Shown here: positions 5,861 through 56,005 of the stretch, in pieces
How the letters are laid out: each line of letters opens with the position of its first letter
Position numbering within the stretch: the stretch's first letter is position 1
Source of the DNA: Paralichthys olivaceus
Taxonomy: Eukaryota > Chordata > Actinopteri > Pleuronectiformes > Paralichthyidae
Reading direction: 5' to 3'
NCBI RefSeq assembly: GCF_024713975.1
Contig: NC_091096.1
Span: 6,575,501 to 6,639,500, forward strand
Length of the DNA stretch: 64,000 nucleotides
Translations under genes and position numbers: made by a program
The notes under the pieces: model-generated
Databases searched by the model: none
Told to the model about the DNA's origin: nothing
What the model saw: only the letters and a program-made list of their open reading frames with translations

Positions 5861-8800
5861 TCATTTTTTCCGTTTCTTCTCCGCTTCTAAACAAAATCTC
5901 TCAAAAGCTTCTTCCATCTCAGGCTCCATCTCGTCTTCAATGTCAGATCTGAAAACACAACACAGCGATTTAGAGGCTCCGACGTTTCCTTTTAGATCCT
6001 AAAGACAAACGTGTTCTCCAGTGTAATAGATGGATTGTGAAATTAATATTAACAGATCCTATAATATGTGGAAACAACTAACATTTATATAGACATAAAA
6101 ACACAAGCTCACACACACACACACAGTTCTGAGGGAAGGTTAAGCCCTCTTTCACACCTAACTGCTGACTAGACTAAATCTGAGGCCACAGTCGACCCTG
6201 TTGTGGGCCAGACAAACACATTTGGCCAAACTCTGGGGCCAACAGGTCAGGGGCAGTCACATGACCTGTGAGAAGCCGCTATGCAGACAAATGACTGAAG
6301 GTGTGCCAGCACAGTGGTAGGGATGAAATTTAAGGTCAAGTTGAATTAAAAGTCAGATCTGCTGTTAGTAAAAGTAAATACCTACATATCCACACCCTGT
6401 AAACACAACGACGTGTGGCATCGTTCTGTTGCTTATTGGCACAAAGTACTGAGTTGATTGCCAACTCTCAGTCTTATCAAGTCAGACTGGTCAAACTCAT
6501 TTCAATGAAATATAGAAAAATAAATTAATGAAACTCTGTAATAGTTTTGAGTTCTGCTTCAGAAATGAAATGAAGACGGACAGATGCATGGACTGAATTA
6601 CACTCTGATCCATGTACGACAGCAGAAATACAGTATATTAATAAAATGAACAACTGCATTCACAGATACACTCAGGGGTTCTAGATCCAAGAAGGAAAAC
6701 AGATTCATATATTATTTTATATCTGCAATTTGTACTTACAGATCATTTCCATTTTCTCCATAAAAATCAAAGTAGTCTTGTCTGTCAAGGATCTCTTGGT
6801 ACTTCTCAGCATATTCTGCGGAAGAAGAGATTCAGGCACAAAAAACGTTTTGACTTGGCTGAAGAAAGTAACCTGGGCGATTTACAACTATTATGTGGAA
6901 ATATCCACAACGACAATATTCTTCAGTTTTATAACCAGCATGTATGGAATAAATTGATATTGACATATTTTATATAAGTATACGTTTCTGTCTGCATGCT
7001 ACTTCAAGTGTCATTTTAAAAATATATTTTTTATTCAGTAACAATAAACCAACAACAAATGAGAGTTTGATTAGTGTAAAAAAACACTTTACATGAATCT
7101 TATGTTGTTTTTATTCATCTCTCTTGAGGGTGGGCATGTTTATATACATGATTATATAACCTTACCTGGGTCTGCTGCTGTAAAAGGTGTGCCATCTTCT
7201 GTGTAGAATGTAGGTTCATTCTGAGAGGACACAAAATAAAACCATAACATAAATGTAGAATAAATACAGGGCGTAGCTATACAGTGTATATGGGGAGATT
7301 TTGACAATGTCTGCACAACAGCTGACTCTCACACGAACGTTTTACTCTCATGTGTGTGAGATGGGCACAGACCCATCTTCAGAGACACTCACCATGAAAT
7401 AGTTGGGGTCGTTGTCTGGAGTTGCGTTACTCGCTGCTGAAACAGCACGAACTCTGCCCCAGTCACTTGATCTCAGCTCCACGAGTTTTAAAAGCATCTG
7501 TCTAACATCCCTAAGGGAGAAAATGCTCAAATCAGAATAACTATAGCTAATAACTGTAGGTTGTCTATTAAAGTTTGATTCAGTTTTTTCACCTCTGAAG
7601 CATGTTCAGGCTTTTTAAACCTAAAGTTACTTTGAGCATATACTACTAGACTAACAGCTGCACACAAAAGACCATAGTGATATACGCACCTGCTGCATGT
7701 GGCATCTAGAACTACAGTTTCTATTCTTTGCATCAGTTCCTCCATGTGCGACTGTCCATTCTCTTTCCACGTATCATCCAGGACGGAGCCTGTAAGCTTC
7801 AAATTCAAACACAATCTTATTACCTCCCAAAAATAAAGAAAAGAAAATCTTGGAAGCTTGTGAATACATCAAAGTGAGATGTGAAACCTTGAGAAGTTTG
7901 ACAGCGCAGATGAGGTTTGAATCCACAGGGTTGGAGAACAGACTGTTCATCAGGTCTTTCAGAGCAATGAGGAGGATATCTGCTCTTTTTGGAGGTCCTT
8001 TAGCACTCTTTATCTGAGCAAAGCAAATCAACATAAATGTCAACAAATGATGGATTTAGATCATTTTAAGGTTGACAGCATGTTCGACAGTGTAACAAGT
8101 AACAACATATAGTATGAAAGATGGACAGCTACTGAACTAATCACCACAATAGCAACATCACCAGAAATCCTGCAGCAGTTCAAGCAGGGTGTACCAAACC
8201 AGCAGGACATGACAGGGTGATACATGAAGCCATCTAGTATGTGATAATGTGATCAAAAGTATGCGTTATAAATATTTTTGAGCAGCGGCCACATTAGTCC
8301 ATGGTGCTCCTACTGTTGGAATGATAATGCAGTTAAAAATAAAATCATCATCGTCACACAGGGCAAATGAGTGTGACCTCTTACCTCCAGGTGCAGATAG
8401 AGCTCCCCCAGAAAGAGCACATAGGAGTGAAACTTCTTTTGAATCTCTGGTTCCCCTCGAACAGCTACATCTCTATGTTGATACTCTGTTTGACACCTAA
8501 AAACAGACAACAATGGTGCTTTGTAAAAGGCGGATTGAAAGAATTAATGAACATGCATGAAATGAAAACTATCAAATAAAAATCACCTTTTCAGGAGCAG
8601 CTGACGAAAGTTGCCACTTGGTGGACTGACATTGAGATGTTTAGACAGGTGATTACAGAGTCTGGCACCCGTGTAGGAAAAGTTTGGAATGGCAGTGGAC
8701 TGCGATGAAAAGAAAACTCAATACCTATCTTGTACAAACATGTGTATTTGCAGGAACATGTATGCATATTATTAGTTTCATACAAAGAACCAACTAAGCA

Positions 8801-11222
8801 CTGAACATCCAAACCTCTTTGTATATCAGTTCCACCAGATCCTTCAGCAACGCTTCAGTAGTAACGCAGGAATTGAGCATGCCAGTTATGTATTCAATGT
8901 CCGACTCAAAGGTCCCTGGTGAGGAGCTCAGGTGATCAAGAAAGTCTTTGACCATTTCATCCAAGTTTAATTCACCGTAATACCCTTCACTGTCATCATA
9001 ATGAGTGGGGTCCTGAATAGAAAACAAAATACAAACATGAAAACAACAAAAGATATTGCAAAAAAAACATTTTCAATTTACAAATCTAAATTTACAGGCT
9101 ATTAGGAACTTTACAGCAGTAATGATGGCTGCCCTTACAAACAGCTAGCTACAGAACCCTACTTGGAAACTAAGAGCAGAACTATTGCCAGGACCATTGC
9201 CATGTAAGGTTGTTTAAAACCACTTTTATAAAAGTACAATAATTAAAGAGATGGTGTAAAAACTCACTTCATACGAGTTAATTCCAGAGGGGACAAACTC
9301 TGCAGCACTGGCTGAAAGCTTCGATGACTTGACCAAGGAGTCGACATCATAACATCCTTGGGAAGACATACTGTTGGCATTTGCACTTTGTTGAGGTCTG
9401 CTTTGTTTTCTACAATCTAAAAGAGAAGATGAGTTGTTTTTGTTATTGACGAAGATTCCGATCAAAAACACAAATTGTTTCAGCAGGATTACAACTTTGT
9501 TGAGTCTCAGCAAAGTTTAATGTCGACAATAGCACCTGTCCGTCATTCAAGGTCATGCTGACCTTCTAACTGTGGAGATAGAGATTTAAGTTTTATTATA
9601 TCTGTATATACGTTATTGGCTGATACGGATGTGCTTTTAGGAATTTTAATGTTGTTAAACAGAGGTTGAGATTTTCAGACCTATTCATGTAATCGTGCAG
9701 GATTAACCATGAATACTGTTTTATTATGTTACAGAAATGACAGTGATGTGAAGTCACACAGAACATAATAAAAATCATCGAAACATGGACGCATCCTGGT
9801 TTAGAGTTTAGAAAGTAACAATTCAAATCAAGTGTATTTGTATAGCACCAAATTATAAATTTTCTTAAGAAACTTTACAAGGTTGGGCAGAAACTTTACA
9901 ACATTACAGAGAAATCCAACAGCTTGAGCCCAGGCCTCGTATACTTGTGCACTGGACTCACCCACCTCTTTCCTCCTGCAGCAGACTGATCACATTAGGA
10001 CTGAGGGGCTGAAAACCCGCTCACAACAACAGCCGCACTTTGAATATTGATGCATGTCTATTCGCGCCCTTACGGTAAATGCCAGCGGAAGACAAAGGTT
10101 TAAAGTTAAAATGACGATTATTATTTTATGAAAATTTAAGTCAAAGTTACTTTCTCATTAAATCACTCATAATCTGCTCACATGAAATATTACTTTTAAA
10201 ATTCCTGGAGAGGTGACAGATACTCTCATTGTCTGCAAGTCAAGTTTCAGAAGATCTCACTGGAGAACTTTAGGCAAAGTTGGCAACTTATTCATTCTGT
10301 GAATCATATATTTAATATAATCTTAAACAAATCCTCCAGAGACAGATTCCCCCCCCACACACACACACTCTTGTTCACTCTTGGTCTGTGTCTCATAGGG
10401 TTTAAATAACTAACATTCCTTTTCATTTTACTTGTTATTGTCCTGTGTGGAAATCAAAGCAACCATCTGTGATCGGTCTCATTAAACTTTGTCATTTCAA
10501 CTTTGTCCTCTGTCTTTATTCTACTCCAAGGACCTTTAACCGTAAAACCGCGAATAGACAAGCATCCATTTCCAAAGTGCGACTGTTGTGAGCGCGTTTC
10601 CCCAAACGACGGACCACATGACCGCAGCAGACTTGCAAACGAAACCGATTCTTCGTCTTTGCTGCGGGTTGCTATCACAGGTTAAAGGGGTTGTGGTGGA
10701 ACTCGTTGCGTTAAAACAGCATCAACCGAGTCACTCGACTCGTCGACGACGTGACACCGGAGCTGGATCTTAATTTAGATGTTGCGTTACCTCACATGAA
10801 ACCCAGCAGCTGCACGGCGCTCCGCCAAAAACACAGAGGTTAGCTAGCAGCGAGGCTATTTAGCTGGCTAGCTTGCAAATGGCAGCTTCACATATTTCTC
10901 TCCCTTCGTTTCTCAGACGGAAAATGCAGAAGCTGGTTTCACATGGTGGACAAACACAGCAACATGTCAGCCACACACAACGATGAGAGCTACGTTAGCT
11001 AGTTAGCGTGTTGACAGTCACCGTACCTCCACCGACCGCATCGCCGGCCGGGCTCGTGTTGTTCTCGGAGAACAGCGGCACGGACCGCGGTTGTCTCAGC
11101 GGCCCCCTCTGGTTGAACAGCTGCGGCTTGGTGTCGTCGTCCCCCGCAGCCCCGAACCCGGGGTCCGCTGGAAGGTTGTAGCTTCTCCCCGCTCCGGGAG
11201 CTCGGTCGAAATTGTGATTCAT
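5861..11222 (-). CDS. paip1: Poly(A)-binding protein-interacting protein 1 (PAIP1), 445 aa, 11 coding exons
   Basis: PAIP1 is a cytoplasmic translation co-activator that binds PABP and eIF4A/eIF3 and so bridges mRNA ends. Coding exons in order are 11027-11222, 9268-9416, 8815-9012, 8587-8699, 8385-8496, 7888-8013, 7690-7796, 7393-7510, 7166-7220, 6740-6815 and 5861-5948, total 1338 bp in frame. The start MNHNFDRAPGAGR matches the FDRAPGAGR start of the mammalian protein; an in-frame ATG or near-cognate codon lies upstream at 11270 but is less likely. A PAM2-like PABC-binding motif (KLSASAAEFVPSG) is at about residues 98-110. The MIF4G domain follows (for example NFSYTGARLCNHLS, KQMLLKLVELRSS-like). 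The tail is acidic then basic, ending KKRKK, as in the PAM1 region. Identification is firm. Confidence 0.96.
6144..6300. repeat. Dispersed repeat, copy B, in paip1 last intron
   Basis: Homologous to about 3225-3420 in the same orientation. It starts CCCTCTTTCACACCTAACTG and shares later GTCACATGAC and CCTGTGAGAAGC blocks. It lies in the intron between the last two paip1 coding exons. It is preceded by a short CA run. Family unknown. Confidence 0.55.
9417..11026 (-). other. paip1 intron 1
   Basis: This is the largest paip1 intron (1.6 kb). It contains a teleost dispersed-repeat fragment around 9826-9930 and otherwise AT-rich sequence. No other exon was identified. Confidence 0.7.
9826..9930. 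repeat. Fragment of a common teleost dispersed repeat
   Basis: The wording 'ATTCAAATCAAGTGTATTTG' followed by TATAGCACCAAATTATAAA, ACTTTACAAGG and ACATTACAGAGAAATCCAACAG resembles a very common fish element whose consensus begins with a TTTATTTGTATAGCGCCAAATC-like phrase. Recognition is from memory; boundaries are approximate. Confidence 0.45.
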
Positions 11223-14200
11223 GACCGCTCGTGTGTCCGCCTCGACTCTCAAAGCAGCATCGGACAACAAGATGGAGGAATGTTGCTCAGCGGAAGCACT
11301 GCGTCTTTACTCGTCTTTCAGCGTCGCACTTATTGTAAAAATCGCTCTATCTGTCTTTCATGGTGGCTTTTCCTCGCTCGGACGCTAACAGAGCGACACA
11401 GCCTGTTCCTGTTCACTTCCGTTAACAACAGTCTGTCGCTGAATATTCATGGCAGGGTTTGATGTTGAATTACAGCTGTCGCCCTCTAGTGGCGCGGAGT
11501 GGAACTGGTAAAGCCATAAATCACGCAGGCAGCGAATTCAGTGGGTTCTTTGTTTTTTTTAAAAATGTATTCATACTATTTATTTTACAAAGAAAAAAAG
11601 AGAGGTAAAGAAACTAAGAAAGAAAGAAAGAAAAAGGACATGGTGCAAATAAAAAATAAAGTGAGATCTAATTCTCACTGAAGAAATAAATAAATGTAAC
11701 CCCTTTGTCCACCTAATCACTTTCACACAATCCCTAAAAGCACAGCATCACTCTCTTCTCAAATATTTGTTATTGTGAAGCATTACTTGAAGTTTTCCAA
11801 ATGTCCAACATACATTTTGCTTAATAAATAACACATTCAAGAAAAACACACCAGACTTGTGAGAAGGAAAAAAAAAATTTACCTAACAATTGCCACTAAT
11901 AACCTCCCTTCTATCCCGACCATTAAGGCTACCTAAAGTGTCAAGGATTTGTGTGACCACATGCCCCCCCGAATATCATTCATGCTGTGGGTGGGCTTCT
12001 GAAAATACTGAGGTCATGTGCCCAAACATCAAATGTCACCCCCTGTGAAAAATCTGACAATTATATATTTTGTTCTGTTACATTTATCGTTTTTGTTCCT
12101 GTTTGTCAGTTTTGCCTCTAAACTCTATTTACTGTCTGTTTTTACATTAGATACCAGATGTGATTTTTTTTTTTTGTTTTATGTAAACTCCCGCTTGAGT
12201 TGTGTTAATTCCCCCAAACTATAAAGATGTGACCTTAATGTTGTCAGTGATGGCTAGAGCCCATGTTTGTAGGTTTAGCCACTGATTGTCTGCACAACAC
12301 GAGTGTCTGATGACTGACCTGTCCAAATGTGCGGTTAAATAACCTTCCATCCAGGTATCAGACACATATTTAAGATTCTGGACCGGTGCAACCCGCTCAC
12401 ACATACCTCTCTCCCCGAGCTCACTCAGTAGCTGCCCACTACAAACATGTGTTGCACCAGACCTCTTAGTCTAAGTATTCATTAGTTGTTTTAGCCTCCA
12501 GTCATTTTCCACTTATTTCCCAAAGCTGGATCACATTATGCCACAGAGAATTCCCATGCCAGAAATGCGGAGACCCACTTTGATTAAAGATTACTGCCCC
12601 TATTTTCTGTTATTGCTGCTTTTTTCTCTCCTCGTGCCAGTGTCTTGGGGAGAGTTCAAACATTCACAGATTTGGCGAATGCATAGGACCACAAATTACC
12701 AGGGGGTTGGTGTTTGGGTGGTGGTGGGGGTTCCTCTCTGTCAAGATTTATCTCAAAAACACTGTTGTGCATGTGGCCCCAGAGGTGAAACAGCCGTGTT
12801 GCATTGCACAGCTATTGCAGAGCAGAAAAAAAGTCATAGACGGTGCAGACATGAAACTGTATTCCATATGTTGCCACTGTCATGGTGGAATTCCCTGCAG
12901 CATTCCTCAGTATTACTCAATTGTCACAGTGATTCCTTAAACATCTATTAAAAGGACAATATACCATAGCCTAAAGCAAATTTCCTGTACTGTGGATTCC
13001 TATGGTTTAGATCACTTGTTGTTTTCCCTCCTGCAGTCACATTTACAGGCCAACAGGGATGAATTTGGGGCCGAAGACAAGAGGCCGCAGCCTCTCGTAA
13101 TCCCACCCTCACCTTCCTGTCTTCCTCTGCTCTCCCAGTTTTTCATGCCTGTCCTCAGATGGATGTTCAGAGAGGCGGGACACGAGCATGAGGCCCGGAA
13201 GCCTGTGGCGTTAATGTTCTCCCCGTGGTCTTTTGATCTGGCATCACGGCAGCTGTCATTGATTAGTGTGTTTGCAGATGATTACTGAGGGAAGTGGGTG
13301 GTCAGACTCGAGTCACATCTCTCTCCGTCACTTCCATTTCTTCCCTCGTTCACATCCTCTCGCACGGCCCCTCCACAAACCCACAGTGCACAATCAACGC
13401 AGACTAACACGACAGAGTTGTTTTTATATTGTTTGTTATCAGCAGGTGCTTTAGCAGCTATCTTCACTGTGCACGGCCTGCGACCAGCGGGGAATGTTGC
13501 AGCTCCACAGAGATGGTGCGATATCAGTGAGAGATGTCAGCAGCCGTACCAAGGACGTTAGCTCCCTCACATTCTGTTGTGGTTGGTCTCCAGTTTGTTT
13601 GGGGACTGATCATTAGTGCAATGGTTGCCACATGGGATATCTGGCGAGACCTTAATGGTTTGCCTTTTGTCCCTTCCTACCTCAGAGACCCAGATAAGAG
13701 TCGACCTACCGTGACCTGGATGTTCACCAGGGTTTCTCAGGGCTAAAAATCAGCCGTGCAGTCAGTGTTTAGGGTACAAGGAAGAACGACCACTGAGTGT
13801 TGCAGAGGAGAAAATGGAAATTTTATTTTCACATAGTAGAGTTCCTATAAAAAGTAGAGCATGCAAAGAAATGCTTGCCTTGTAAGTGTTCCCCTCCAGT
13901 TAAATATTTCACGAAATAAATAAATCATAACAATACAGTCAAAACACAGTGGTTAAGTATTAAACATTTGCTTTAAATGTGTGGTATCCTCTATTATTTA
14001 ATGCTGTCACAATAAACTGACTGATCATTTCTCTCATCATACTGTAGTCATTTTCTATCCCTCCCCTTTACTTCTCGCAGAAAAATATGGATTATAAATA
14101 ACATCTGGAGATACTTCTGTATCTACTACAGTTCATTAACTGGGACACTGTCTCCTGTGTTGTCCACATTACACACATGCTCCAGTTGCAAACTGTTTGG

Positions 14201-14446
14201 CACAGAGAAAAAAAGGATAAATATTGCGTCCTGTGCCACAGAAAACACAGTTATCACCTTCTCCCACCAAATACAGAACATGATCTCACTCAAAGTCCTT
14301 TGCAGAGACCACATTTTTGTGTAACAGTGTTAGTGCCTTGTTTCCCAATGAGAGATTTTCCAGTGAATGTCTTTTATTTTACAGCTTTATTGAAAACCTC
14401 TCTGTCCAGTGCTGCGTAGTCTCCCCCTCCAGTGGAGCTCCTCAGC
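11223..14446. other. Intergenic region between the paip1 promoter and the fgf10 3' end
   Basis: The first 200-250 bases are GC-richer and hold the presumed paip1 promoter and 5' UTR. No TATA box is obvious, as expected for a housekeeping gene. The remainder has no recognisable gene. Open frames at 12538-12951 and 12992-13746 on plus lack any domain or paired splice sites. The right end is the fgf10 3' UTR. Confidence 0.6.
14373..14391 (-). promoter_or_regulatory. Two candidate poly(A) signals of fgf10
   Basis: TTTATT at 14373-14378 and again at 14386-14391 (AATAAA on minus) lie about 55-75 bases after the fgf10 stop codon. Such a short 3' UTR is possible, but a longer form using sites further left (for example near 13826) is equally likely. 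Confidence 0.3.
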
Positions 14447-17400
14447 TCACACCATAATTGGAAGGAAGTGGGTGGCCGTGTTCTTCCTGCGTGTTTTCTT
14501 CCCTTTGAGCGGCCTCCCGTGGACGTTCAGACCCATGAACATCTGCCGCTTCTTGTTCCTCCACGCAGCTGATGCGTATGTGTTGTAGCCGTTCTCCTCG
14601 ATCCGCTCCTTCAGGGTGCAGTCCACGCCAAACTCTCTCTGGGAAAAAAAGCAGTAGATATCATGTTTCAGTGTTACAACCCCGACGTGTGAGGTTTAGG
14701 CAAAACACGGATCATTATCTTGTGCAAATCCACTGCGGTTGCACATGGAACAGTGTTTATTTACTCCTCCTTAATCTACACTAAATGTTACTTTGTGTTC
14801 TTGTGTGGAAACTAGTTTACAGTTTAAAAATTGCACAGTTCTGCTGGGGGTTCATGTGCCTGCACTGGCCTGGTTGTGATTCAGAGTTGATGCAGCAGCA
14901 AGAGAAGGCCTTCTTTGATTAGGACATAGCGTATTTGACACTATCTCTCTCTCTGGAGCATCCACATTGACTTTTGACTCAGATACTGACCGCTCCGTAC
15001 AGGTCTCCCTTCCTGCCGATAGCCAGGTAGTAGTTGCTGCTCAGCCCTTTGATGGCCACCACTCCCACGTCCACCGAGGTGATTTCCAGGACACCTAGGG
15101 TTCAGAAAAAAGACGGTTATATCATCATGTATCAACGTTCATCATGAGCATCAGAGCTCTTGTTTCATTCACGCAAATAAAATGAGTTCAGAGGGACAAA
15201 TCTCTTGTGACAGAGGAAGTAAAGATAATACAGTGTTTTCCTGACTCATCTTTGCTGTAGATAAGACAACACAACAATTAACATTGGGGCAACAGTCAGA
15301 GGTCAACCCCTGGAGAGTCTAGACACAGACTGGAATATATCCTCGAATGTTTATATCAAGTATAATGGATAACATGTTGCATTTTCTCATTTCAGGACAT
15401 TTCCACGTGGGAACTCTGTCTGGTCACAATTATCGTTTGAGCACATTTATCATTTCTATGATATTATAAAGTTTCTTTACAACCTACACCTGTGTAACAG
15501 ATTCCAGCTGCAAAGGCCATTTAGTCTGAAAATTGATAGGTGGATACCCCAGAGATTCTCAGGCTGTTTATATGCTGTTTGGTATTTAGGTTTCCAGGTC
15601 CCTACACAAATAATTCAGGTTTCTCACAGGCTATTAGAGCAGCTAATTTATAGCCTAGTTAACAAGGGGCTGCTTTTTCTGCAGACAGCTGGGATTATTT
15701 GTGTGGTCTCAGTATCAGAGGTCAGAGAGATATAACGTCCTAACGTGTCCTTTGACCACAGAACCCACTCATCTGGTCTTGTGCTGCTGTGCGTGTGTGT
15801 GTGTGTGAACTGTCCCAGTTCACATGGCATGTTTGATTTCAGGCCTCCCTCCCTTACTTCCTTTCCACACTTCCTGTGAGCTGTCGTTATTTTATCCCGA
15901 TAAGCACATATGTGTGCACACACACACATACACACACACACACACCACACAATCCGTGGCGTGGGGGTGTGAACTCCACAGAGTCGACGACATGCTTTGA
16001 TCAGGTCAGCAGCCCCTCCTCTGTCTGATGAGTGTTTGTGCGGCAGCCCGCTCTGCTGTCAGGCCCACTCTCCAGTGGCTGGGGGGCCTCTGAAGCTGCC
16101 AACCTCGTACATGTGAGTGGACAGTGGAGGAGGCAGGTGTGACCCCCAAAGAACAATCCCTCTCATAAAACTACAGCAGCTTCTTTCCTCGTCCGTGAGG
16201 TCTTGACTGTATCAGTTTCTAGTTCAAACAGTGGCACCTTGGGGCAGTGAGGCCTGAGTCGGCAAGGCGGTGGTGGGGACTGTGACACAACGGCCATTGA
16301 AGATCTGAGAGGAGCTGGTTTCTGTATGGGATCGGGTGTCGGGTATGGAGTGAGGATGTAAGACAATCTATGGCAGTCTCTGGCTGCTCTGTAAACATGG
16401 GAGGGATGAAAGGAAGGAGAACAGAGGAGGACAGAGGAGCCATGACAGTGAGACTGGGGGTGGAGGGAGGATTAGAAAGGCTGTAATGATCACTGATCAA
16501 AGTCAGCCACCGGAGGCAGGGGCGAGACAGGTTGTATACACACGCATGCACACACACACACACACATGCACGCACACTGCTGCACTCACGGAAACACAAG
16601 CACACACACATAGTCAATGTTGTAGCAGGTGAATGTGCACTTGCACACCTGGCTGTGAAACTACAAAATCTCCATTCACTGTTTTCTGATGAATGCTCAG
16701 CTTGGCCCAGAAAAGGAGAGTAATGAGCGCAGGGCTGCCAATTTTGGTAAAGGGCATAAGAAAAAATCTGTTCTTCATTTAGCTTCTTGTAGATTACAAA
16801 ATGAAGCCTTAAATGTGACAGCAATGCTTTGTAAGGGGTAAGTTTTACAAACCACACATGTAAAATGTAGCCTAAAGTGAGCCAGCCAGGCTCAGCTGTT
16901 TACTTGGAGGGAAAGCAGATTTTCTTTTGCATGCTGGTTGCTTTTTCCTAATGTGTGGCTTATTTGATACGCTCTGTTTGGAGTTACAACAGTAAATGGT
17001 GCGTTGGTTGGGGAATGGAGGCACACAATGCCAGTGAGAATTAAAGGTGGTTTTTCCACAGTGGGATGCCAAAAAGCATGTGCTATCCAGCTTGTATTGT
17101 TGTTCTTTCTCAGCCTTTCTTAGCCTCTTGGATGTTCGGGTCTGCACAAAATTATATTTTGGCAGATAAGTTTAAAATGTACATTTTGATTGGTACCATT
17201 CCCGTGCAGAAAAAATGGAGCGGAGTGAGGCATAAATCAGGATATATAGTAATAACACTTGATAAGGACCACACTGACTGTATTTACACAGAGCAGATAT
17301 CCACCCTCTTCCCCACCTCAGAGAAAAGCTATACATCTCTGTCCTCAAACCTCCACAACAGCCCCATCTGTTCTTTGCCATGTAAAAGGCCACAGCTTTG

Positions 17401-18841
17401 ATTAAAGGAGATGAATGCACACAAATGTGCACTTACACATGCATCCACATATACTATGTATACACTCCTTGAGCCATGTCTGCAGGCATCTTGCACACAT
17501 GGCCTGGCCCCCACTGCACAGAAATTCAACTGGTGGCCTAACAACACAACTGCACAAACACACGCACACACACAACTCTGTTACCGCCCAAACCTTTTGA
17601 CTGAATCTTAGCAACATTTCATTATTCACCCAGAGCTCCTAGTTGTTGGTAAATTCAAGAAAACTCAGTTGTGAATCATGAATATTTTAACTACACACTC
17701 AGGGCCATGCAGATAGCTACTTAGCTGTCTTTAACATGATCTCAAGCCCTTCCTCTCTGCCTCTCTGTAACCTCAGCACAGGCTCCCAGCGGGTTGGAAA
17801 ACCATGTGGGACAGTTTTGCGCTGGCATCCCCATAAATCTGTGGGAGGCTGGATACCAGTTCCTTAACAGACAGTGAGCCGGGTCCTTGCAGGGCCACAG
17901 GCAGCACCAAAACCAAGGCCTCCACATCCCATACACCTCTCTGAGACAAACTGCTTATACATACAAACATGCTTATGTATGTACACTTATGTATATAGCT
18001 GAAGAAAAGACTAGCCGTCATCCCCTACTCATCACTAAAAAAAAAGTACATTTTGTCACTTCAAGGGATCATCAAGAGTCTACAAAGGATGTCAGCCCTG
18101 GGATCATGTCTAGCCCCAGGGGCCAGAGCAAAGACTGAAGCTACTGTTGTGTAGTATCCTTTACCATGTGAACCTGATATGAGAGTGCATAATCCACACA
18201 CAGTGTCCCCAGACCCCCTCAGGATACAGCTTTTTGATGGCACCACCATTGATACTGAAGACGCATGGCTTTGATGTGGCCACAATGATGATCAGCCATG
18301 TCATTCATGAACTTGTGCCTCCTGAGAGTTTCTCTTTCACCTCCCTCTCTGACGCTCGGTTCGCCCTAACTCTAACCCACTTCTGATAAAAGGCAACCAT
18401 GAAAAATGTGACTTTATGAATTGTTCAGAATAAAAACAATTAGACAGGGGAGGTGAATTATCTTCCAAACATACAGAGCGTAAACAGTGGGGGGGGATTC
18501 ACACACGCAGATTCAGACACACGGAGACACACTTCCTCGCACCTCTTCACGTTTACTACTCAAAAGAAACTGCTGATGAAGGAGGCAGTAAAAACATCAC
18601 GATGTAATACTGTCGGTAAATAAAGTTGCTTCTGTCGTGACCTTGTCAAAACAAACATCTCCTCTGACATTCTGCCTCGCCGTGCCATTTCCCCTCAGTC
18701 ACTTTGATTGAATGTGTGGTTTAGGTCTCCCAAGAGGAACATTAAAAGGTTCCATATACACTCGCTATGGGGTTGGGGGACAGCAGGGGAACGGGAGAAA
18801 AAGTGCATTTGAGAAGGGGAGACATATATATATATATATAG

Positions 18842-18879
<38 letters not shown>

Positions 18880-20345
18880 CGTGTATTTGTGTGTTTCAGT
18901 AATAAGTGAGCACATGTGTTGTCGTTGGCTGCTGTGTGATCACACACCCTCTGGAGTCCGGGTACCCACCGGCTGATACAGGCACACACACGTAGCTCAG
19001 TGGGAATGCCGGGACACAAATGAGAATGCCATTTTACTGACTGATATGCCGAAACATACAACATGTAATCACTTTAAAGACGCGTTTCTCAGAGTGAGCA
19101 CGTCAAACTACTTTAAACAAACGTCTGATCTTTGACTGAGGGTATGTAATTTGCTTGATGCCGGCTGGCAGGCGGGCAATCTGAGTGGGAGAGTGAGAGA
19201 GAGAGAGACAGACGAGGAGAGGCAGAGAGGGTCTAAAAGCATCAATGAGCCTGACATCCATGTCCTCCCCCTGCTCCAGCCGGGTTCTTCTGTGCTTGTT
19301 ATCAGCGCTGTTTACCCTGGGCTGTGAAGACTGCCTGATAATGGACGGGTTATCTGCCCCTGCTCCTTTTTAAGCCATCTGAGGGCTACCACCATTGTAC
19401 TGAGTGTTTGGACAGGAGAGATATCAGTGGGATGTCTGGTTTAAAACAAAAAGACCGGAATGCTTCGTCCAAACTTCCAAACCAATGGACAGACTGGCGG
19501 TCTCTGGACATTTTTTATTCAAATCCAATGTTCAAGCCATCAATAAATCAAATGAATGCATTATGAGCGTCTTCATCAAAGAATTGAACGTCTGATTTCT
19601 CAAATTAGACATGAGCAAAATTTCAGAGGCTTGATTCAGACTTGATCCATGACTCAAAACAACCGACAGGTGATTTTATGTTAACATTTATATCCGAATG
19701 CTGCAAAATCCAAACAAGTTTTCATTGCAGAGACTAGAGACTTTTATTTTGCAAAAGAGAGTGGCCTCGTTTAAGATGTAGGAAAGGTTTACATTGACTT
19801 CGGTTTCTGGTTTAATTTGGTTTCTAGTTTTTGCATGGTTTATTATTTCATTTTTTTACATTCAGATACTCATTGAGTTACTCACTGAGAGGGTCATCCT
19901 TGCTCTTGGTTCCACTGACTGTTCCATTCTTATCGATCCTCAGGAAGAACTTCTGGAAAGAGAACAGCTTCCTCCTGCGTATATCCCCTTGGAGGTGATT
20001 GTAGCTGCGCACATGTCTACCCTGCGGTCCTCCAGTCCGACCCAGAGTGCCCCCACTGGTCCTGGGCCTGAAGGCGAGCTCAGTCTCCGAAATGTTCAGT
20101 GGAACTCTGAGAGCTCGTGGGTTGGCGAGCCTCAGTCTTTCTCTGCGGAGCTGATGGCAGGCCGCCCCAGACAAGGAAAAGGAGAAAAGCACCAGGGCCA
20201 GCAGGAGAGGCAAAGACAGGGAGGAATGCAGTGCTGATGACCTTAGTCTAGAGTTGGTCCCAGAGCCAGAAAGAGCCCCTAACCCAGCCCTGGAGCAGGA
20301 CGAGGCAGAGGCAGCCTTACTCCCTCCAGCAGCCCATCTGATCAT
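14447..20345 (-). CDS. fgf10: Fibroblast growth factor 10, 251 aa, 3 exons
   Basis: FGF10 is a secreted, heparin-binding FGF of the FGF7 subfamily. It signals from mesenchyme to epithelium through FGFR2b in limb/fin, lung/swim-bladder and gland budding. Exons are 19886-20345, 14991-15094 and 14447-14638; 756 bp close in frame. The FGF core starts at about residue 110 with [12 protein letters not shown], the FGF10 signature, and continues [48 protein letters not shown] and THFLPIMV at the end. N-glycosylation sequons are NIS (about 84) and NGT (about 140). A hydrophobic segment (about 43-62) follows an unusual 42-residue leader. No other Met occurs before exon 3, so the first ATG is required unless an upstream exon exists. 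Teleosts have fgf10a and fgf10b; linkage to myl7/gck makes me favour the b copy, unproven. Confidence 0.94.
15095..19885 (-). other. fgf10 intron 1
   Basis: A 4.8-kb intron rich in simple repeats: CA/GT runs at about 15793-15808, 15917-15950 and 16547-16566, and an AT run at 18822-18876. The long minus open frame at 16219-16857 has no domain, crosses a CA run and is not treated as a gene. Confidence 0.7.
18822..18876. repeat. (AT)n microsatellite, interrupted
   Basis: About 55 bp of alternating AT with one GTATAA interruption, inside fgf10 intron 1. Confidence 0.9.
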
Positions 20346-27691: not shown

Positions 27692-30600
27692 ATTTATAGC
27701 GACTCTGCTTTTCATATCTCTCACTACGGAAGACACTGATTGAACGTTGCCTTGAATGTTGCGTACAGACCTGTGTTTGTCTTGCATTCCTGCGTATTGC
27801 ACTTCCTGAGTGTTTCTGGTTTGGAAATCTTCTCACAGAGGCTGTTTGGCATCACAGCTGAATCTTGGTCACTCACACAGTTGACATGCCGGTGCTGCTG
27901 ACCCCCGCCACAACTCACAGGACACTGAAAAGTCATAAAACTAAATCTTTCAGCCCACTTCTACGACTTTTTTCAGTGCTATAGTTTATCATTTTCAAGC
28001 TCGATCACGTGTGACTGACCTCCTCCCACTCCTCAGTCTTCCACTGCGTGCACGGCTTTAGGCTGCACGTGTCTGTGTCGTTTGGTCTCAGCGTGGTGCT
28101 GCAGCGATGAGGCTCGGGACAGTACACCAGACGCTCCCTGATGCCTTCGCCACAGCTGCCGGAGCACTGAGGAAAACACAGGATTTAAGAGATGGAGCAA
28201 AAGTGAATTTCCACATTTGAAGGTGAAAAAATGTGCGTAATGCTCTTACCTGTCCCCAGGGTGATATGCTCCAGGTCATACAGGGCTTGTGGGGACATGT
28301 CAAAGAGCTTATGGGTCTGCTGGACTCTGCTTGACAGTGGAACGGTCTCAGGGGACGTTTGCTCTGAGAATCGACACACTGGACGTCGCGGTACCTCCTT
28401 CCCACCACTGCACAGTTATCTGGGCACTGCAGATGTATTATCACAGGATGACAAGAAAAAAACAACAGAAACAAACACATTTCATCTTCTGGGAATTCAT
28501 TAGAGGTATTTAGAATAAAGTCACATTAATAAGTGTAATTATTTGATTCAGTGACTGGAGGGAGTCGAACATTACTCACTTTGCTCCAGCTGCCACTTTG
28601 CCAGGTGGCACAGGGCTGCAGCTCACACGTACGTGCAGGTTCAGGTCTCTTCACGTTGGCACAGTCCTCAACCTTCTGAGAGCTGCACATGACTGTTCGC
28701 CATATTGCACCAATGCCACATGTTGTTGAACACTGGGGAGGAAGTGGTGTTTTATGATTTAAATGTGTGCAGCTATGTGAGTGACAAAATGAAGTGATAC
28801 GTAAGACAAGAGGAATCTCCTTAACAACAACCAGCCACAGACTGCACCTGTACTTTTGCATGTTTTCGCCTAATAAAAGCAAATGTTGTAATAATTGTTT
28901 AAATAAGAAATCATAAAATGGATTTACCTCCCACCACAGAGCCATTAGAAGTAACTTAACTTATATACCAGTGTGCAGGTGCATGCAGGGATAGTTAGGA
29001 AAACTCTCCTCTTTAGTGAATTTAGGGAGGTCCAATTATTATGATGAAATTCCCAATATCAATGTCTGCTTGTTTTTTGTTTTATGCATTTTCTGGTATC
29101 ATGGTTTTAACCAATTGTTTTTGAGAACTTTAAATTGACGCTGAAAATTTGGAGATTCAAGCTGCAATAAAGCAAAAATAATTTTTCATCTTTTCCATTA
29201 AAAAATTATAATTAACTTCACTGTAAATTTCAAATTTGTTTTCCAATGTTATCAGTTATATACTTTAAAGGAAGAAAATAATATTACAAAATGGTATGCC
29301 TTGTAAAATGGTTGGCATAATAATATAATTTGGTGATAAACTGCGTGTACCCACCTCGCTCCAGTTTCCTACAACCCAGGATATATCCATGCTGACTGGC
29401 TCCCTGGTCATCACGATGCTGTGGTCACTGGTGGAGCTGCTCACGGGACTCCCTGGTCGCCGGTTTTGGTTCTTGGAGCCTTTGGACCGTGACGAGGGCT
29501 TTTTAGCACGTGAGACAGAAATGTTTTTCTTTGGCGTCACAGCAGGTTTCTTCACTTTAATTATCTTTACTGTGGGCTGGGCCGATGCTGCAGTGGTGAA
29601 CACTTTTCTTGCAGTTGTGGAGGGAGCGCGTGTTGTGTGGAAGCCGGTTTTCAACGGGACTGAGTGGTTCTTGTACATGGGAGTGGTGAGGGGAGCCCGG
29701 TGTGTCCAGTGTCTGTGTGGACTGGTGTGGGGGTTGGATAAGTGGTGAGTTGTCTTTACCCATGTTTCAGTGCTGGTGCGTGGGGTGGAGTAGCTGGTTG
29801 TGGTGGGTGTTCTGGTTGTGTTCACGGTGGGTGGACTTGTTTGTGAAGTGGTTGACGTGGGAGGATTTTTCAAGGATGTAGCCGTGGTAGAAACATCCAG
29901 GTTGATGATCCCTTCCTCTTCTGCCGTCCTATCCTCGACAACATAATCATATCCTGGAGTGTACATCACCACGTTTGGCGTACTTCCCTCCTCTCCCTCC
30001 ATGTTTTCTTTTTCCACCCCACTTGCTTTCTTCTCCTTTTCCACAGAGCTGGGTTTAGAAGGAAAAACCTTCCCCCTCTTATCCCCATTTTTCCTCATTA
30101 CAACACTGAACTCATAATCATCATCTTTGTCGATGATTTCAGGGGTTGTGGTTTCAGAAGGAGATTTGGTGGTTTGGACAACAGCTGTTGTCGTTTCTTT
30201 GGCTGTTTTCTTCGTCGCAGGGACAGCGGATGTGGCTGTGGGGCTGGTGGGAGCCCAGGTAGGGGGAGCTGGAGGCCTGGCAGGGGGGCTCTTCGGTGGG
30301 TAGATGCGACGGTATTTGGGGGCAGGCCCGGGTCGTCTACGAAGACTTGAGTTAGGGCAGCTCTGCAGGGCACACAGTGATCTGGACCGAGGTTTGGTTG
30401 AGAGGTCACAGGTCTTTTTGGGTGCGACTGTGCATGTGACCATGCGCGAGCGAACTCCTCCTCCGCATGTGACTGGGCACTGCAAAGAACAAAGAACATG
30501 AATAAAACATTGACTTACAGATAAAGGGAGGTAATCAGGTATGGTCAAAACAAAATAAAAACTGGAAGCAAGCTCAGTAGTCACGTCTCCACCAAGGCCC

Positions 30601-33600
30601 AACAGTCCCCTCAGATTCACTAGATGTGGATTTTTTATTAGATCTGCACCAATTTACACTCACTAATATATCAGTCTCCCAAACATGTTAGACTTTTTTC
30701 ATCATGAATTATTCTCAATGAAAATCTCTCAATATTAAAGAAAGTGGAAAAAATTCCCAGATCCACACCAAAATGTAATTGGTTCTTTCCTGACAAGAAC
30801 TGCATCCTTCCACCAAGATTCATGCTAATCCACCTGCAGGTTTTTGCATAATCATGCTAACAAACAGATACACAACAAATAAACACACGAGAAAACAAAA
30901 ACCAGACTTACCTCTTCCCAGTTCCCGACCGCCCAGTCCTGCCCACACGGTACGTCTCTGTTGCACGGCACCGCAGGTTTGGGTTTAAGGAGATGTTTGC
31001 ATTCCACAGGGTGGAGGACCCTCTCCTCTGCAGAGACTGTGCGAACACACAGCACCGTTCGCTTTCTCACACCATCTGATCCACAGGTGGCTGTGCACTG
31101 CTGCCAACCTCCAACCCACCACCTGAGGGGAGCAGGGTGGAGAGGAACAGAGAGGAAAAATAACTTGGTGAGTAGATAGTGTCCTTTTGTTCATGTTTAA
31201 TAGTTTTGTCAATACCTTGCCCGAGGAATCCAACCCAACTTTTCATTTACCAAAATAAATCCCATTTTTAAAATAACAAATGTTGTCAAAACCTCAGTCA
31301 GTCTGACTTTCCATGTATCATTTTCTGTTTTATTTTGATATTCACCTGTCTCGTCCTATTAGTTCCTGCGCTCATGTGTTCCCCCCGACCCACCCCCCCC
31401 CCCCCCCCCCCCCCCCCACACCTGCATCTAATTACCCTATTTGCCCCTGGTCTTCCTCGTAGTAAACCCTGTGTATACAGTTATAGCACTGTTCTGTTTC
31501 CATTTTTCCTGTGTGCGTCCGACGCTCTCTAACCTTTGCTTCTTGTGGTTTTTGACTCAGCTCTGTTCCCCAGTTTATGAATTCCTGTCTGCTCCTCTCC
31601 TGCTTTGTTTGCCTTGTTCTCACGGCCTACGTGTGTAAGACCTTTTGGATTATCAGTAAAGAATTTGCCTTTTTGAACTCAACCCTGCTTCCTGTGAGCG
31701 TCTGAGTCTCTGTTCCCACCAGTATCCTTCCAGCGTCACCCCTGCAGTAAAAACTATAGATGAGGCAGTAACATTACTTTTGCCATAATCTTCTATGGGT
31801 AGATCTACAGTAGTCAGGTAGATAACCTCGAATATTAAAACTGCGTTGATCATCATGAAAGGCTTATCTGACAAAAACCACAGTACAGTGAGCTCACACC
31901 AGGAGTCAGAGGGCATTTGAGAGTAAGAACCTTGCGGGACAATCCATCGTCTTGCATTTTCGGTGTCTGTCTTCAGGACGACTCTCCGGGTCACACAGAG
32001 ACTCGTCCACTACGCCCACGTCCACCTCGAAGCATCGGACAGGCTGGTACTGCACACCTGGTCAGAAATCACACATCAAGTCCAAAACTAAATCGTCAAC
32101 TGAAATCCTACAAACATTCACAGAATGAGAAATGTTCTTGTCACTTGAGGCACCGACCTAAGCCACAGGTGGTGCTGCAGTCTGTCCATGCCCCGTGTCT
32201 CCAACTGTAAGTGGGTTCAATGATCTCATTTCCTGCCTCTTTGGTCTTCTTTATCGTGTACTCGTACTTTATACCCAGGTTCTTCTCCTGAAACAGCAGC
32301 TGGACGACCACATGAAACATCACACAGAGTTTCCCTCCTCAAGAATATTAAGTTTGCATGCTCTGATCGGTTGACCATTCTTAAAGTCTGCCCCTCGTCC
32401 CCATTCCTAATTGGCTAAAATCATATTACAAAGACCGAAAATACAACTTGCTGATTGTTTTATATACATCTCACATTACTGAAACATTTAAAACTGAGGT
32501 ATGTGGGCCTTTACCTGGAGCATGACTGGCTGTTTGGTGGGTCCAGGAGCAGTGAGGTTCTCCATGTTCCCGCTGCGTTCGTAGTAGAACGTTGTCTCAC
32601 CGGCCTCGTACTCCCCGTTCCACTGGATGATGAAGTTGCCGTTGAGGAAGTACTCCTCCGACGCCTCACTCCTCAGGGCCAGGAAGTTACCTGCCTCCTT
32701 GACTTCCGTTACCAGGATGTCCCGCGCCCCCTCAGGTATCACACCCACATCCACGTACCCTGGGAGAGTCGGGGGGGAAGTCAGAGTCACGGCGGGGTAA
32801 TGAATGGGCCACCATGGCTGCTGCCACACTCACATCCAGGCTACCAGACAGTTTTCTCTCTGATCTTTAATAGAGGGTGGGCTCGCTCTGTGGGGGTGGT
32901 TGGCATGTGTATGTGTGTGTGAGTGTACGTGTGCATATTCGGCGTGGGGGGCACTGTCCTGTCTCTGGCTTTTACTGTGTGTGTGTGTGTGGATGGGGGG
33001 GTGCAGGATGGGGGAGGACGAAAGCCGCTGTGAGTGGGTCTCTGGCGTTTAATGATGTTTGTGGGAAGGAGTGTGTGTGTGTGTGTTGCAGTGTTTGTGC
33101 AAAGGAGGGGGAGGTTTGCCCTTGGTCTAAGTCTTTTGAAGTCCTACACATCTGGGCTGGTTATCTGGAGAGGATGCTGTGTCGGGCAAATACACACAGA
33201 CACAGAGAGAGAGAGAGGGAGAGAGAGGGAGGGGGAGGGAGAGAGAGAGAGAGAGGGAGAGAGAGAGAGAGGGGGAAAGAGAGGGAGAGAGAGGGAGAGA
33301 GAGAGAGAGAGGGAGAGAGAGGGGACGTTTTATTGTTTTAGAGCTTACCTCTCTATTAATCTGTCTTTAAGGTATGTTGATACTGAGGGTGAGTTATGCT
33401 TCTCCCAGCAAAGAAAATGATACGTGTGTGTTTCTTGAGATAAACACAAACACTGGGCTGCGGGTACACACACACACACACACACACACACTGTACCAGC
33501 CAAGTGCAGCAGGACAAACAGCTGTACCGTGTGGACGAGGGGGTTGCCACGACAACCAGAACAACACAATGCTGTAATGCTAATGAACCGTCCTGAAATG

Positions 33601-36600
33601 ACTTTAAGTCCGAGGACATAAATTTGAATTTGGTGCTGGTTTTCTTACTCTGCTGTTGTTGACACATCAAAGCATTTTCTCATTAATAGGTTTCTGTTTT
33701 CTGTTACAAAAATGTTTGTAATTGTTTTTCTGGTGTCCAGATCATTTCATTTGTCTCCAGCTGCTCAGATATCCTGAACTCACCGAAGCCCTCTGCCTCG
33801 TCGAACGACTTATAGACCGTCTCGCAGCTTGTGCCGTCGCCCAGGCAAACCCCACAGCGGTCCTCCACTGCGTTCGAGTCGATGCCACAGTCACAGCCGA
33901 CGTCCTGCAGACAAAACACACGCCCACAAACACATAAAAACGCAACCACAGACACATTACAGCGAATCGTAAGATGGAGGGTTTGCACAGAACATCTCCT
34001 CCTCCCTCTCTCACACTGCATCTCGCCTCGCACCCTGCTCCGCTACAACCCCTCCAGCCTCCTTTAGTCTCTTACCCAGCCACACTACCTTGCACACTCC
34101 GTTGACACAGATGTTTCTGGACTTGTTGTTCATGAAGCACGTCGTTCCGTCCGTCACAGCGTCGAGCATCTTCTCCGAGAAATAATCATTGACTGGTCGG
34201 CAGTGCAGCTCGCAGGGGTTCACTGGAGACAGTCGTGAGATGAATAGAAGAAAAGAAGAATATCGATGTTGAACTCAGATTAATAGTGCAAGTTAATTTC
34301 AAGTCAAGTCAAACTGTCTTTCTGATGCCTATTATTGTTTGATTCTTTTTCACACACAACCCTGAAGAAATTATTTATTTTGTTACAGACTATATAAAAG
34401 TGATTGGAAAAGAGTTAAAACAGCAGCTGCAGCACTGAAATGTTTTAGGCCCCACCACAACCTTTTCAGTGGAAATGCTACCCCCTGTTGGCTGACAGAT
34501 ACAACTGCACCTACTGAGCTTATGGAAAGAGAAGAGCAAAAAGACGCCTCCCAGCATCTCTGTGTGTTTGTCTATCCGCAGGATCTGATGACAGTCCGAG
34601 GCTTTGAGCACTTACAGGGGTTGGCCACAGGAATCCACTGGTAGAGCTCGTTGTTGTAGGCCACGGTGTCAAACTCACTGCACTGCATCTCCCGAAAGGT
34701 CGGTTTGTCCTTCTGGCAGGGTTTTGTGTTACACGTCCGATAACGCTTCCTTTCTCCGGTACAGTACTTTCCTCCAAACTCTGGCCTGCGGAAAACAGTG
34801 GGACACTTTGAATCACTCAGGGTGAACACTTTTGTTTCAGGTAGTCTTTTTTAAAAGAGACAGCAAAAGACAAAAAGAGGTCGGCTGTGCCTCATGATGT
34901 GAAACACATCTAGAACTAGAATGTTACTGCACATAATGCCACCATAGCCCAACAGTATCATTAAATTCAATTAAGATGCATCAAATTTAACCCAGTCATA
35001 GACATCAGGGCCCTAAAAGTTTGTCAGATTTTTCTTTTATCAAGAGATTTAATCCCTAGGTAACCAGTGAAAATGTTGAAAAACACCCTGTATCTTAATG
35101 TTAATGATTTGGATCTGCACCTAAATTTAATGGTTCTCTGACCCATACCGCATCCATCTACTCAAATTCAGGAAAAATCTTTATGTATGTTATCCTGTAA
35201 TTTATGTAATCTTGCTGATAAACATCCAAACCAACCAACTAACAGACGGACTGGGGTGAAAACGCAACCTCCTCTGCAGAGGTAAGAAGTTCTTACTTGG
35301 GGCTGTTACATTCCCTCTCCGCTGACTGAACCCCTGTCCCGCAGGTCCTGGAGCAGTGAGACCAGGTACTCCACTGTCCCCAGCCTCCGTTCACAGTCTC
35401 TGGGAGTTTTCCCACGATCACACACTCTCCGGAGATACACCACTGAAGAAGAAAATAACAAAAGCAATGGGACACATTCGATAGTCAAGATTTTCCTTCC
35501 CCAAGCAAATGAACCACAAACCCTAACAAGACTAATCAAAGGGAATCATTCACCTTCTCTGGTCCGCAGCGGGTGCCGTCTATGGGCGAGTCCAGTTTGG
35601 AGCGACAGGAGCCGTTCACTGAACACCAGAGAATCTGGCAAACGTTCTGAAGTAGACACACAACCCTGAAGCAGTTAAAAAGAGTTTTCTAAATGACATT
35701 TATTTGGTGCTTATGGGTGATACTCACATCCACCTCAGGGCAGAACGTAGCATTGGGGCCATATTGGAGCTGGCACTGGTGGTGCGTAGTGTAGCGGACG
35801 CCGAGGCGAGCCAGCGGCGTGGTTAGATCCCTCTTGGAAGGACGATCGTCCAGACAGAAACCCCATCCACGACTGAGACAGACAAACATACACGTGTGAA
35901 GTTTTGGAGAAGATGAAAAAGAGGAAGGGGCGCAAGGTGGTGCAGACAGAAAGAGGAACGAAAAAACTAAAGGAGCTTGTTTGAGAGAAATCATTGATTA
36001 TGGTAAGAAATATTTAAAAAATTGTACAAACTTCATGTAAAACACACACAGTTTGTTTTTAGGCTGCACTTTGCTGCATACCAGCCCAGTTTTAAAAAGG
36101 GTGTGATAGAAAAACACCAGGAAAGATTACGTGTTCAGAAGCCTCTATTCTAATAGCTTGCTGATTCTCAGGTCAGAGTTCAACAAACATGAGCTCTGAC
36201 CTCTGACCTCGCAGGAGCTCGAGGTGATGCAGTTCACACAAAGGAATTCATCAATTCATCACCGACACAGTTTGCAACAGAAAATAATGAGAAAAGCAAT
36301 CGGGACTTATGAAGCTGTAAACACATTCTAATGCTGCTTTTCTGCCGCTTCAGCTTTTATTGCATGTTCGTTCTTTGCTGCTCCTTTAAAAGCTTAGCAT
36401 GTCACGGTTTGCTGCACATGTTAATACAACTTTAATTTGTTCCAACACACACACACCGCCCTTTTTGTTTCTGGACCATTTTCACTGCATCCAATCACAT
36501 CTGCAAAAACATATTACATTTTCCTATTTTCTCCAACAGTGCTAAAGCTGGGGTGACTCAAGTTGTCTGTTTTATATGAATATAAAAATTAACGGCTGCA

Positions 36601-53328: not shown

Positions 53329-53334
53329 AATAAA
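53329..53334 (+). promoter_or_regulatory. Candidate poly(A) signal of gpat3
   Basis: AATAAA about 360 bases after the gpat3 stop. The neighbouring small gene ends at 53694 on the opposite strand, so the two genes are tail to tail with closely spaced 3' ends. Confidence 0.55.
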
Positions 53335-53693
53335 ATTGTTTACAAACTGAATGGGTTCTATATTTAAGAGTCCTGGACATACCTTTATAACAAGACATGA
53401 TTAAAACTAATAAAATACTGCAAAAATTGTGTTTTAAGTATTTAAATATAGACTTGAGGTATTTAAATCTTGCAATGTTGTGCCTCAGAAGAATTAACAC
53501 TTACTGTATTCACGTAAAAACAATCTGTCCAAACAGTTTTCCAAATTTTAATTGAACACTTGACATCGTTTTTCATGTGCTTTTGCTAACATTTGACCCC
53601 TCACACCTTTTTCTAGAGAACACAAGAGACAAAAGGTTTTGGCAATTAAATAATACATTGTGTGTTAAAAGCCCAGTGCATTAAATGTCCACA

Positions 53694-54838
53694 TTAGAGC
53701 AGAACACACATCTGAGACTTTTTGGATCTCTCTCCGCTGGAAGGTTCCTCTGAAGCATGACTCTCACTGCCTCCATTTCTCACTGAGCACTCATCTTTGT
53801 CCCCTTAAAACAAATGGAAACAGACTTGTTTCATTCGCTGTAACTGTGAATGTTGACACAAGCAATCAATACAAACATTGTCTGACCTTCATTCTCATGA
53901 TTGCTCGTTTCTGTGTTTTCCTGAGTGACCTGTGAGAAAAAAACAAATATCTCTTAATCCAATCAGCAGCAGTCACAGTACCTCAATGGGCAGTTTTCAA
54001 ACCATTCAGTTCTGTGATGACATTACTAACCTGTAGCACATTACTTGTGTTTCTCTTGCTCTTGTTGAGCTCCTTATATCTGCGAACGTCAAACAATGAA
54101 AAGTTTACATGAGATTTATTCACAGTAACGTGTGGTGGACAGCAGCCAGTGTGTGTTTTTTTTAAAAGATGTAACTTCCTGTCTCTTCCTTTTCATTAAC
54201 CCTGCCAGGACAAACAAATGGTACGGTGAAATATTTATGAGGCAGATTAGTGCCTCACATCTGTGTCTCCCTCTCCACAGCTCAGATGACAAACAGGCTG
54301 CTGTTGATTCACTCCAGCGAGAAGCTGCTTTTATCTCTGAGCAATAAAACCCAATAAAACTGCTCTGTAACAAATCATCTGTGGTTTTACCTCAATGGTT
54401 TCTACCTTCAGCTCTGCTCACATGAAGGGCTTTGCTCTGATTTTAAATGTAGCTACTTCATTAAGTAAGTTTTTGTCATTTAGCTATTACTTATTTAGCA
54501 AAGTTAATATCAACCTACATCTGTATCAGCTGCTTGGTTAAAGTAACATCTGCACCAGGACCAAGCAACATGGTGATGACAGGAAGTATTCCAGCTCCAC
54601 ACAAAGACCCCGTGTATTGTACTGAGAGTTCTACATCGTCAAACACTGTGAATCAATCATCCTTCAAAGTGCAGCTACATGTCAGAACACACATGCAGGG
54701 ATCAACCCACCTTTGCAGATAAGAGTCACAGCTCTTGTTTGCAGCTTTGGGCTTCCTCTTCAGTCCATCTGGGCTCCATGTTGTACTCTCCTCTCCTCCC
54801 ACATCCACCCGGCCTGCAGCTCCAGATGCAATCGGCAT
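53694..54838 (-). CDS. Unrecognised 109-aa protein with a C-terminal CaaX box, 4 exons
   Basis: Exons 54711-54838, 54031-54079, 53887-53929 and 53694-53803 join through GT-AG sites (AG|GTGGGT, CAG|GTTAGT, AAG|GTCAGA donors) into 330 bp with every phase matching. That is strong evidence for a real gene although no exon exceeds 130 bp. The ATG at 54838 is the first after an in-frame stop. The protein starts MPIASGAAGRVDVGGEES, is hydrophilic and charged (GLKRKPKAANKS, YKELNKSKRNTS, EENTET-like), has no signal peptide or membrane segment, and ends SKKSQMCVLL. CVLL is a canonical CaaX box predicted to be geranylgeranylated, with a basic SKKS patch like Cdc42's tail. Family not recognised. Confidence 0.62.
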
Positions 54839-56005
54839 CTCTGCCAGCACAACCACAGATTCCACAAATCAAAGCTAAACCCTCTGTCATCTGGCTGCGA
54901 CTCCTCTGTTGCTGGATGTGTTGAAAGGAGAGCTGGTCTCAAAGCAGCTCTGCAGAAGCCTCCGTCCTCCTGTTGTTGACCGGCTGTTTGCTGTGTGAGC
55001 AGGAAAATGTGGCCGTGCGGTTAATGGAGACGTTTGTTGTTGTATCCACGGCAACAGTGTCCGAAAAGAAAGGAACAGCAGTGAGGCCTTTGTGAATGTG
55101 ATGGATCCACTGACATCTACTTTACTTTATTTCACTTTACTTGACTTAACCCCAACCCAACTCACTTTGCAATAATCATGTGTGGCAGTCGACCAGGCCA
55201 CCGGGGTCTCCCACACAGCCAGAGACAAACATGGTGCTTTTCAGCATATTTTATTAATCCCACCGTGCAAATATAACTAGAGTAAGCTCAACTCAACAGT
55301 GTCCCAAATCTCAGTCCTGAGTGTCTCTCCATGAATGTCTTTTTGAGGACACTCTGCTGCTGCTGCCTTTTAAACCTGAGGATCAATCAGATAACTGCTC
55401 TCACCTGCACTGATCCTCTGGTGCAGGTGAAGCTGTTCTAAACTGATGACATATTCTATATATATATATAATTCTATATGAAATATATTTTTCAGTCCCC
55501 ACAGTGATTTGTAACTTTTCTTTGTTGTAAAAATGAGTGAGGACAATCTGATAGTATGGATTAGTTGAAATGATCAGTGGTAACAGCCTTGGAGGTTTTT
55601 GAATGTGCTCACTTCATCGTGGTTGTCATTGATCACTCAGAAGCAGCATCACGTTACCAAAAAACCATTGCACACTTTTTTAAAACAATAAAAAAAGTTT
55701 GGTTTGTTTTATTTATTTATTTTTCAAAGGATAAATGATGGTATTGAATTTTAAATTTTAAATAATAATTTTATATATAATTGTTATTACAAATTGGAAA
55801 AAAAAAAAAGTTTTTTACAGCAGTGACAGTTTTTAGTCTAATCAAATGTGCAGTGTTACTTCACAAATATGAGCATAGTCATTATAATTTCATAATCAAT
55901 AAAGAAGCTTTGGAGGAGCCAACATCATACATTCCTACATTATTCAACCTTTTATTCATTTTTCTGAATTTTACCAACAGCCTCTGGCGTGTTAGAACAA
56001 GCTTA
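54839..56005. other. Intergenic region between the CaaX gene and myl7
   Basis: No exon found. A stretch at about 55180-55445 (CCACCGGGGTCTCCCACACAGCC onward, then TTTTAAACCTGAGGATCAATCAG and TGGTGCAGGTGAAGCTGTTC) reads like a diverged transposable-element end, but I cannot name it. The right end holds the myl7 3' UTR. Confidence 0.5.
55951..55956 (-). promoter_or_regulatory. Candidate poly(A) signal of myl7
   Basis: TTTATT (AATAAA on minus) 50 bases after the myl7 stop codon; gives a short 3' UTR. Confidence 0.45.

Follow-up and report, generated by a model that had tools for sequence, protein, structure and literature searches.

Four short exons on the minus strand of a stretch of Paralichthys olivaceus DNA (contig NC_091096.1; 64,000 nucleotides, hereafter the window) raise the question whether they form a gene, and whether the encoded protein would be lipidated. 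Our reading is that they probably represent a real small gene, apparently single-copy, whose polar and presumably largely disordered product would be membrane-tethered by a geranylgeranylated CVLL end. Like the gene model itself, this reading was derived from the DNA sequence. The exon chain and its surroundings, the searches for relatives, and the chance controls are described below, together with the alternatives on which they bear.

The exon chain and its surroundings

Spliced translation of the window joined the four minus-strand exons, via three GT-AG introns of 631, 101, and 83 bp (calculated from the coordinates; phases 2-0-1), into a 109-aa frame ending in SKKSQMCVLL and a TAA stop (Table 1). 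The exon coordinates, GT-AG junctions, phase agreement, protein length, and C-terminus given in a preliminary description of the locus were reproduced exactly on re-translation. Phase agreement of exons so short is weak evidence when taken alone. The GC content of exons 1 to 4 is 0.54, 0.39, 0.42, and 0.48, respectively, vs. 0.42 for the window.

Table 1. Coordinates and scores of the candidate gene and of signals in its flanks (slashes mark splice junctions)
Feature	Position in window	Strand	Description	Scores
Exon 1 (coding part)	54711..54838	-	128 bp; ATG to donor AAG/GTGGGT; codes for residues 1-42 plus two bases of codon 43	Frame 8.7 vs 5.0 and 5.6 in other sense frames; donor 4.1; Kozak 1.65
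Exon 2	54031..54079	-	49 bp; acceptor TTCGCAG, donor CAG/GTTAGT; encodes part of basic segment	Acceptor 2.35; donor 3.0; spliced frame the only one of six above 0
Exon 3	53887..53929	-	43 bp; acceptor TCTCACAG, donor AAG/GTCAGA	Acceptor 7.5; donor 1.9; spliced frame 1.6 vs 0.3 and -0.9; best antisense 0.8
Exon 4	53694..53803	-	110 bp; acceptor TTTTAAG; end GERSKKSQMCVLL-TAA; CaaX motif	Acceptor 2.7; spliced frame 4.8 vs 2.9 and 1.9
ATTAAA, poly(A)-signal-like hexamer	53547..53552	-	~140 bp past stop codon; consensus match alone	
Possible 5'UTR intron	54991..55165	-	Donor AAA/GTGAGT, acceptor CTCACACAG/C	Donor 3.1; acceptor 2.3
TTTAAA, TATA-like	55369..55374	-	~0.5 kb upstream of ATG; consensus match alone	

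Each strand was analyzed with a purpose-written gene finder that combines codon scores with donor, acceptor, and start matrices, the splice, start, and codon tables being generic vertebrate values. At the strictest setting (intron cost 6.5), exactly these four exons were returned with a score of 13.2, and no plus-strand chain overlapped them; the same run also returned many exons of the neighboring genes, some of them chained across two genes. At lower intron costs, exon 4 ended early at 53710, the CVLL end was lost, and three or four more exons were added, which we judge to be spurious. Within a local 1.9-kb stretch, the identical four exons were obtained in 6/6 settings, i.e., two codon tables (generic vertebrate, and trained on the window without the candidate) combined with three intron costs. 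The spliced frame scored highest of the six frames in 4/4 exons, a result that is partly built in because the finder maximizes that score. Splice sites were compared with those of finder-predicted exons of the neighboring genes (28/30 donors and 29/30 acceptors scorable). The donor scores (4.1, 3.0, and 1.9, the third, that of exon 3, being weak) were within the reference range of 0.7 to 5.4, and the acceptor scores (2.35, 7.5, and 2.7) were within the range of -3.0 to 6.9, or above it in one case.

The ATG of the 109-aa frame had the second-best Kozak score among seven ATGs scanned. An upstream ATG frame of 54 aa (window 54726-54890, minus strand) overlaps exon 1 out of frame and, if transcribed, could interfere with translation of the 109-aa frame. 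Further upstream, the candidate 5'UTR intron (55166/54990) is one of several splice-like pairs in that stretch, and a scan of 1.2 kb gave seven TATA-like matches, TTTAAA among them. Downstream of the gene, the ATTAAA hexamer is the sole AATAAA or ATTAAA in 0.7 kb scanned. On the plus strand, such hexamers occur at 53329, 53400, and 53409, with further ones at 53645, 53680, 54343, and 54353. The first three could be used by the converging gpat gene; as they lie ~0.14-0.22 kb from the minus-strand hexamer (53552), the converging genes would end almost side by side.

This converging plus-strand neighbor is an acyltransferase gene (PF01553). Upstream, and on the minus strand like the four-exon gene, lie an EF-hand gene and then a hexokinase-domain gene (PF00349), so that the arrangement proposed before, tail to tail with gpat3 and head to tail with myl7, agrees with the domains found. 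Genes with FGF and MIF4G domains are located farther left in the window. The names gck, myl7, gpat3, fgf10, and paip1 are those that we presume from the sequences. The same applies to an ADAMTS-like gene, for which the scanned piece gave no domain match. The MIF4G (paip1-like) and FGF (fgf10-like) genes occupy 5861-20345 (minus strand), ~36-50 kb from the myl7-like gene; in human, the paip1/fgf10 and myl7/gck groups are on different chromosomes (5p and 7p).

Searches for relatives

The 109-aa protein gave no significant match in Pfam and no match in NCBIfam or PDB, which bears out the earlier statement that it contains no GTPase motif or other domain. With Pfam matches listed to E 10, four sub-threshold hints appeared: FidL_like (0.18), Vpu (0.21), DUF4578 (0.26), and Ku_C (0.7). 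A small GTPase of the Cdc42/Rho type was rejected, the Ras-fold domain being absent from these four matches. Likewise, an Rdx/SelW-like protein (MIEN1) and a G-protein gamma subunit were discarded, neither the Rdx nor the G-gamma domain being among the Pfam matches. DUF4578 (PF15147) reached 12.4 bits against a curated cut-off of 27 bits. A genome search for the Rdx family (PF10262), which we take to be the MIEN1-like family, is a weak test; it gave a single match in the whole genome, on C1 and not at this locus.

The search of the own genome covered 588 Mb in 25 contigs. With an E limit of 10, eight matches were listed, namely the four exons themselves (E 1.7e-21 to 0.17) and four non-self matches with E values of 1.27 to 7.43, so that only own exons were found below E 1 and a paralogue was rejected. 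Pattern matches numbered 326 in prokaryotic and 13 in viral contigs, and none was confirmed as a relative. No Rfam match for a structured RNA was present in the window at the gathering score, and one AT-rich two-copy repeat match was detected in the 3 kb searched. Nothing on this gene was seen in literature search listings.

The alternative that survives best is that the gene is not new: it may be a rapidly diverging orthologue of something annotated in other vertebrates, or be present in fish databases as an uncharacterized entry. We give it slightly more than an even chance; it is compatible with a real small gene and concerns novelty. Polar proteins of such a kind would be expected to diverge fast and to elude profile searches, and the four sub-threshold Pfam hints are consistent with this explanation. 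Automatic annotation would probably call the chain too, because a simple finder calls it. On the other hand, Pfam, NCBIfam, and PDB were without a significant match, and six peptide strings of the protein had no occurrence in 5.39 million papers, which says nothing about databases. A genome search for DUF4578 was empty as well, but so were its 14 controls, hence this result carries little weight.

Chance controls and the reality of the gene

A real small gene has to be distinguished from a transcript that encodes no protein and from splice-like sites that line up by chance. Non-coding sequence was simulated by a fourth-order Markov model trained on the non-coding part of the window (60 × 64 kb). 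At intron cost 6.5, no chain with a score of at least 13.2 was found in 3.84 Mb of one-strand simulated sequence, the best reaching 8.6. In 40 more simulations with the six settings (2.56 Mb each), the local score was reached by 8/127, 2/96, 0/51, 3/112, 0/75, and 0/46 chains; chance chains thus do reach the score of the candidate at the looser settings (8/127, 2/96, and 3/112).

Real sequence gave a less favorable picture than the simulation. The non-coding part of the window, with called exons and the candidate masked, contained four chains scoring above 2, all on the plus strand; the top one (9.9) includes the apparent last exon of the gpat gene. As a further control, 20 stretches of 10 kb (200 kb) were taken, one per contig from 20 contigs. 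They contained 46 chains, 15 of which scored at least 12.7; 2 of these 15 were antisense to a better chain, 2 we judge to be doubtful, and 11 looked protein-like by eye. The simulation therefore overstates certainty, because real genomic sequence yields more high-scoring chains, some of them false. The preliminary remark that chance alone rarely gives such a chain holds for simulated sequence at the strictest setting, with none in 3.84 Mb, but looser settings and real sequence both produce some such chains. Antisense strands of coding exons can mimic genes: chains scoring 26 to 66 were found at 29389-35650 (plus strand), antisense to the ADAMTS-like gene.

A non-coding or chance origin would fit the small size of the gene, with two exons below 50 bp, the false chains of like score in the real-sequence controls, and the fact that no relative was found in Pfam, NCBIfam, PDB, the own genome, or the prokaryotic and viral contigs, the last two being hardly able to hold one. 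We nevertheless regard this origin as unlikely, given that the spliced frame is the best in every exon, that no simulated chain attains the score at the strictest setting, and that a complete CaaX motif closes the frame. Because no plus-strand chain overlaps the candidate at intron cost 6.5, and because exon GC explains the codon score only partly, the balance is in favor of a real gene. On sequence grounds, the four-exon gene is probable, not proven.

The CVLL end and the predicted protein

The CaaX-type criterion for GGTase-I comprises a cysteine four residues from the C-terminus and L, I, or M as X, and CVLL fits it. By chance, an end of the type C-[VIL]-[VIL]-L is expected in ~1 in 10,000 proteins (~1e-4), and the looser CaaX pattern is common (1.2 in 1,000). 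Many known prenylation substrates have a polar tail with basic residues just upstream; the tail of the 109-aa protein is polar, too, with basic residues just before CVLL.

In a humanized yeast assay, human GGTase-I modified 100% of a Ydj1 reporter ending in CVLL, and human FTase modified this reporter as well, whereas yeast GGTase-I showed little or no modification (PMC11152559); the sequence of this reporter upstream of CVLL differs from that of the 109-aa protein. The geranylgeranylation predicted previously is thus in line with both the GGTase-I criterion and the modification by the human enzyme (PMC11152559), and we infer that the 109-aa protein itself would be lipidated. That the gene is real and its terminal CVLL incidental and not prenylated appears highly improbable: a proteome of tens of thousands of proteins will contain a few of these ends by chance (~1e-4 each), but CVLL belongs to the fully modified reporter sequences (PMC11152559), and polarity and basic residues characterize the tail.

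The protein has a pI of 6.1. Residues 26-52 form a basic stretch, with a moderate helical moment in its vicinity (0.45 to 0.49), and the tail is preceded by an acidic, serine-rich region at ~61-97. In the CaaX pathway, the action of GGTase-I is followed by trimming by RCE1 and methylation by ICMT. If the gene is real, CVLL would be geranylgeranylated by GGTase-I, the C-terminus would then pass through the RCE1 and ICMT steps, and the lipidated end may anchor the protein at the cytosolic side of membranes. The basic segment might in that case be an arm that binds membranes or partners, and the acidic, serine-rich linker its flexible stalk. Expression, disorder, and the binding role are presumed in this scheme.

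Of the overall reading in the preliminary description, the probable four-exon gene, the GGTase-I-compatible end, and the lack of a recognized domain stand; the suggested role as an 'adaptor' is a guess, and the likeness to Cdc42 is weak. It is doubtful that the protein represents an undescribed family without kinship to any known CaaX family, specific to one lineage and made up of short vertebrate proteins that are disordered, geranylgeranylated, and equipped with a basic arm. The four-exon gene alone settles no long-standing question. If real and conserved, it would add a short protein without a recognized domain to the vertebrate CaaX set and would show that small multi-exon genes elude domain-based naming.

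The tail of CDC42 ends in CVLL with lysines nearby. The 109-aa protein shares this C-terminus and the nearby lysines with CDC42/Rho GTPases, which are GGTase-I substrates, but is without a GTPase domain match, and the putative likeness is confined to the last four residues and the preceding lysines. MIEN1, UBL3, and the G-protein gamma subunits are small, membrane-attached non-GTPase CaaX proteins of ~70-120 aa with a recognizable fold; the 109-aa protein resembles them in size and in its C-terminal CaaX, but no fold was recognized by Pfam. Paralemmins are longer and partly coiled-coil; the 109-aa protein is shorter and without a Pfam family match, and has in common with them a polar composition and the C-terminal CaaX motif.
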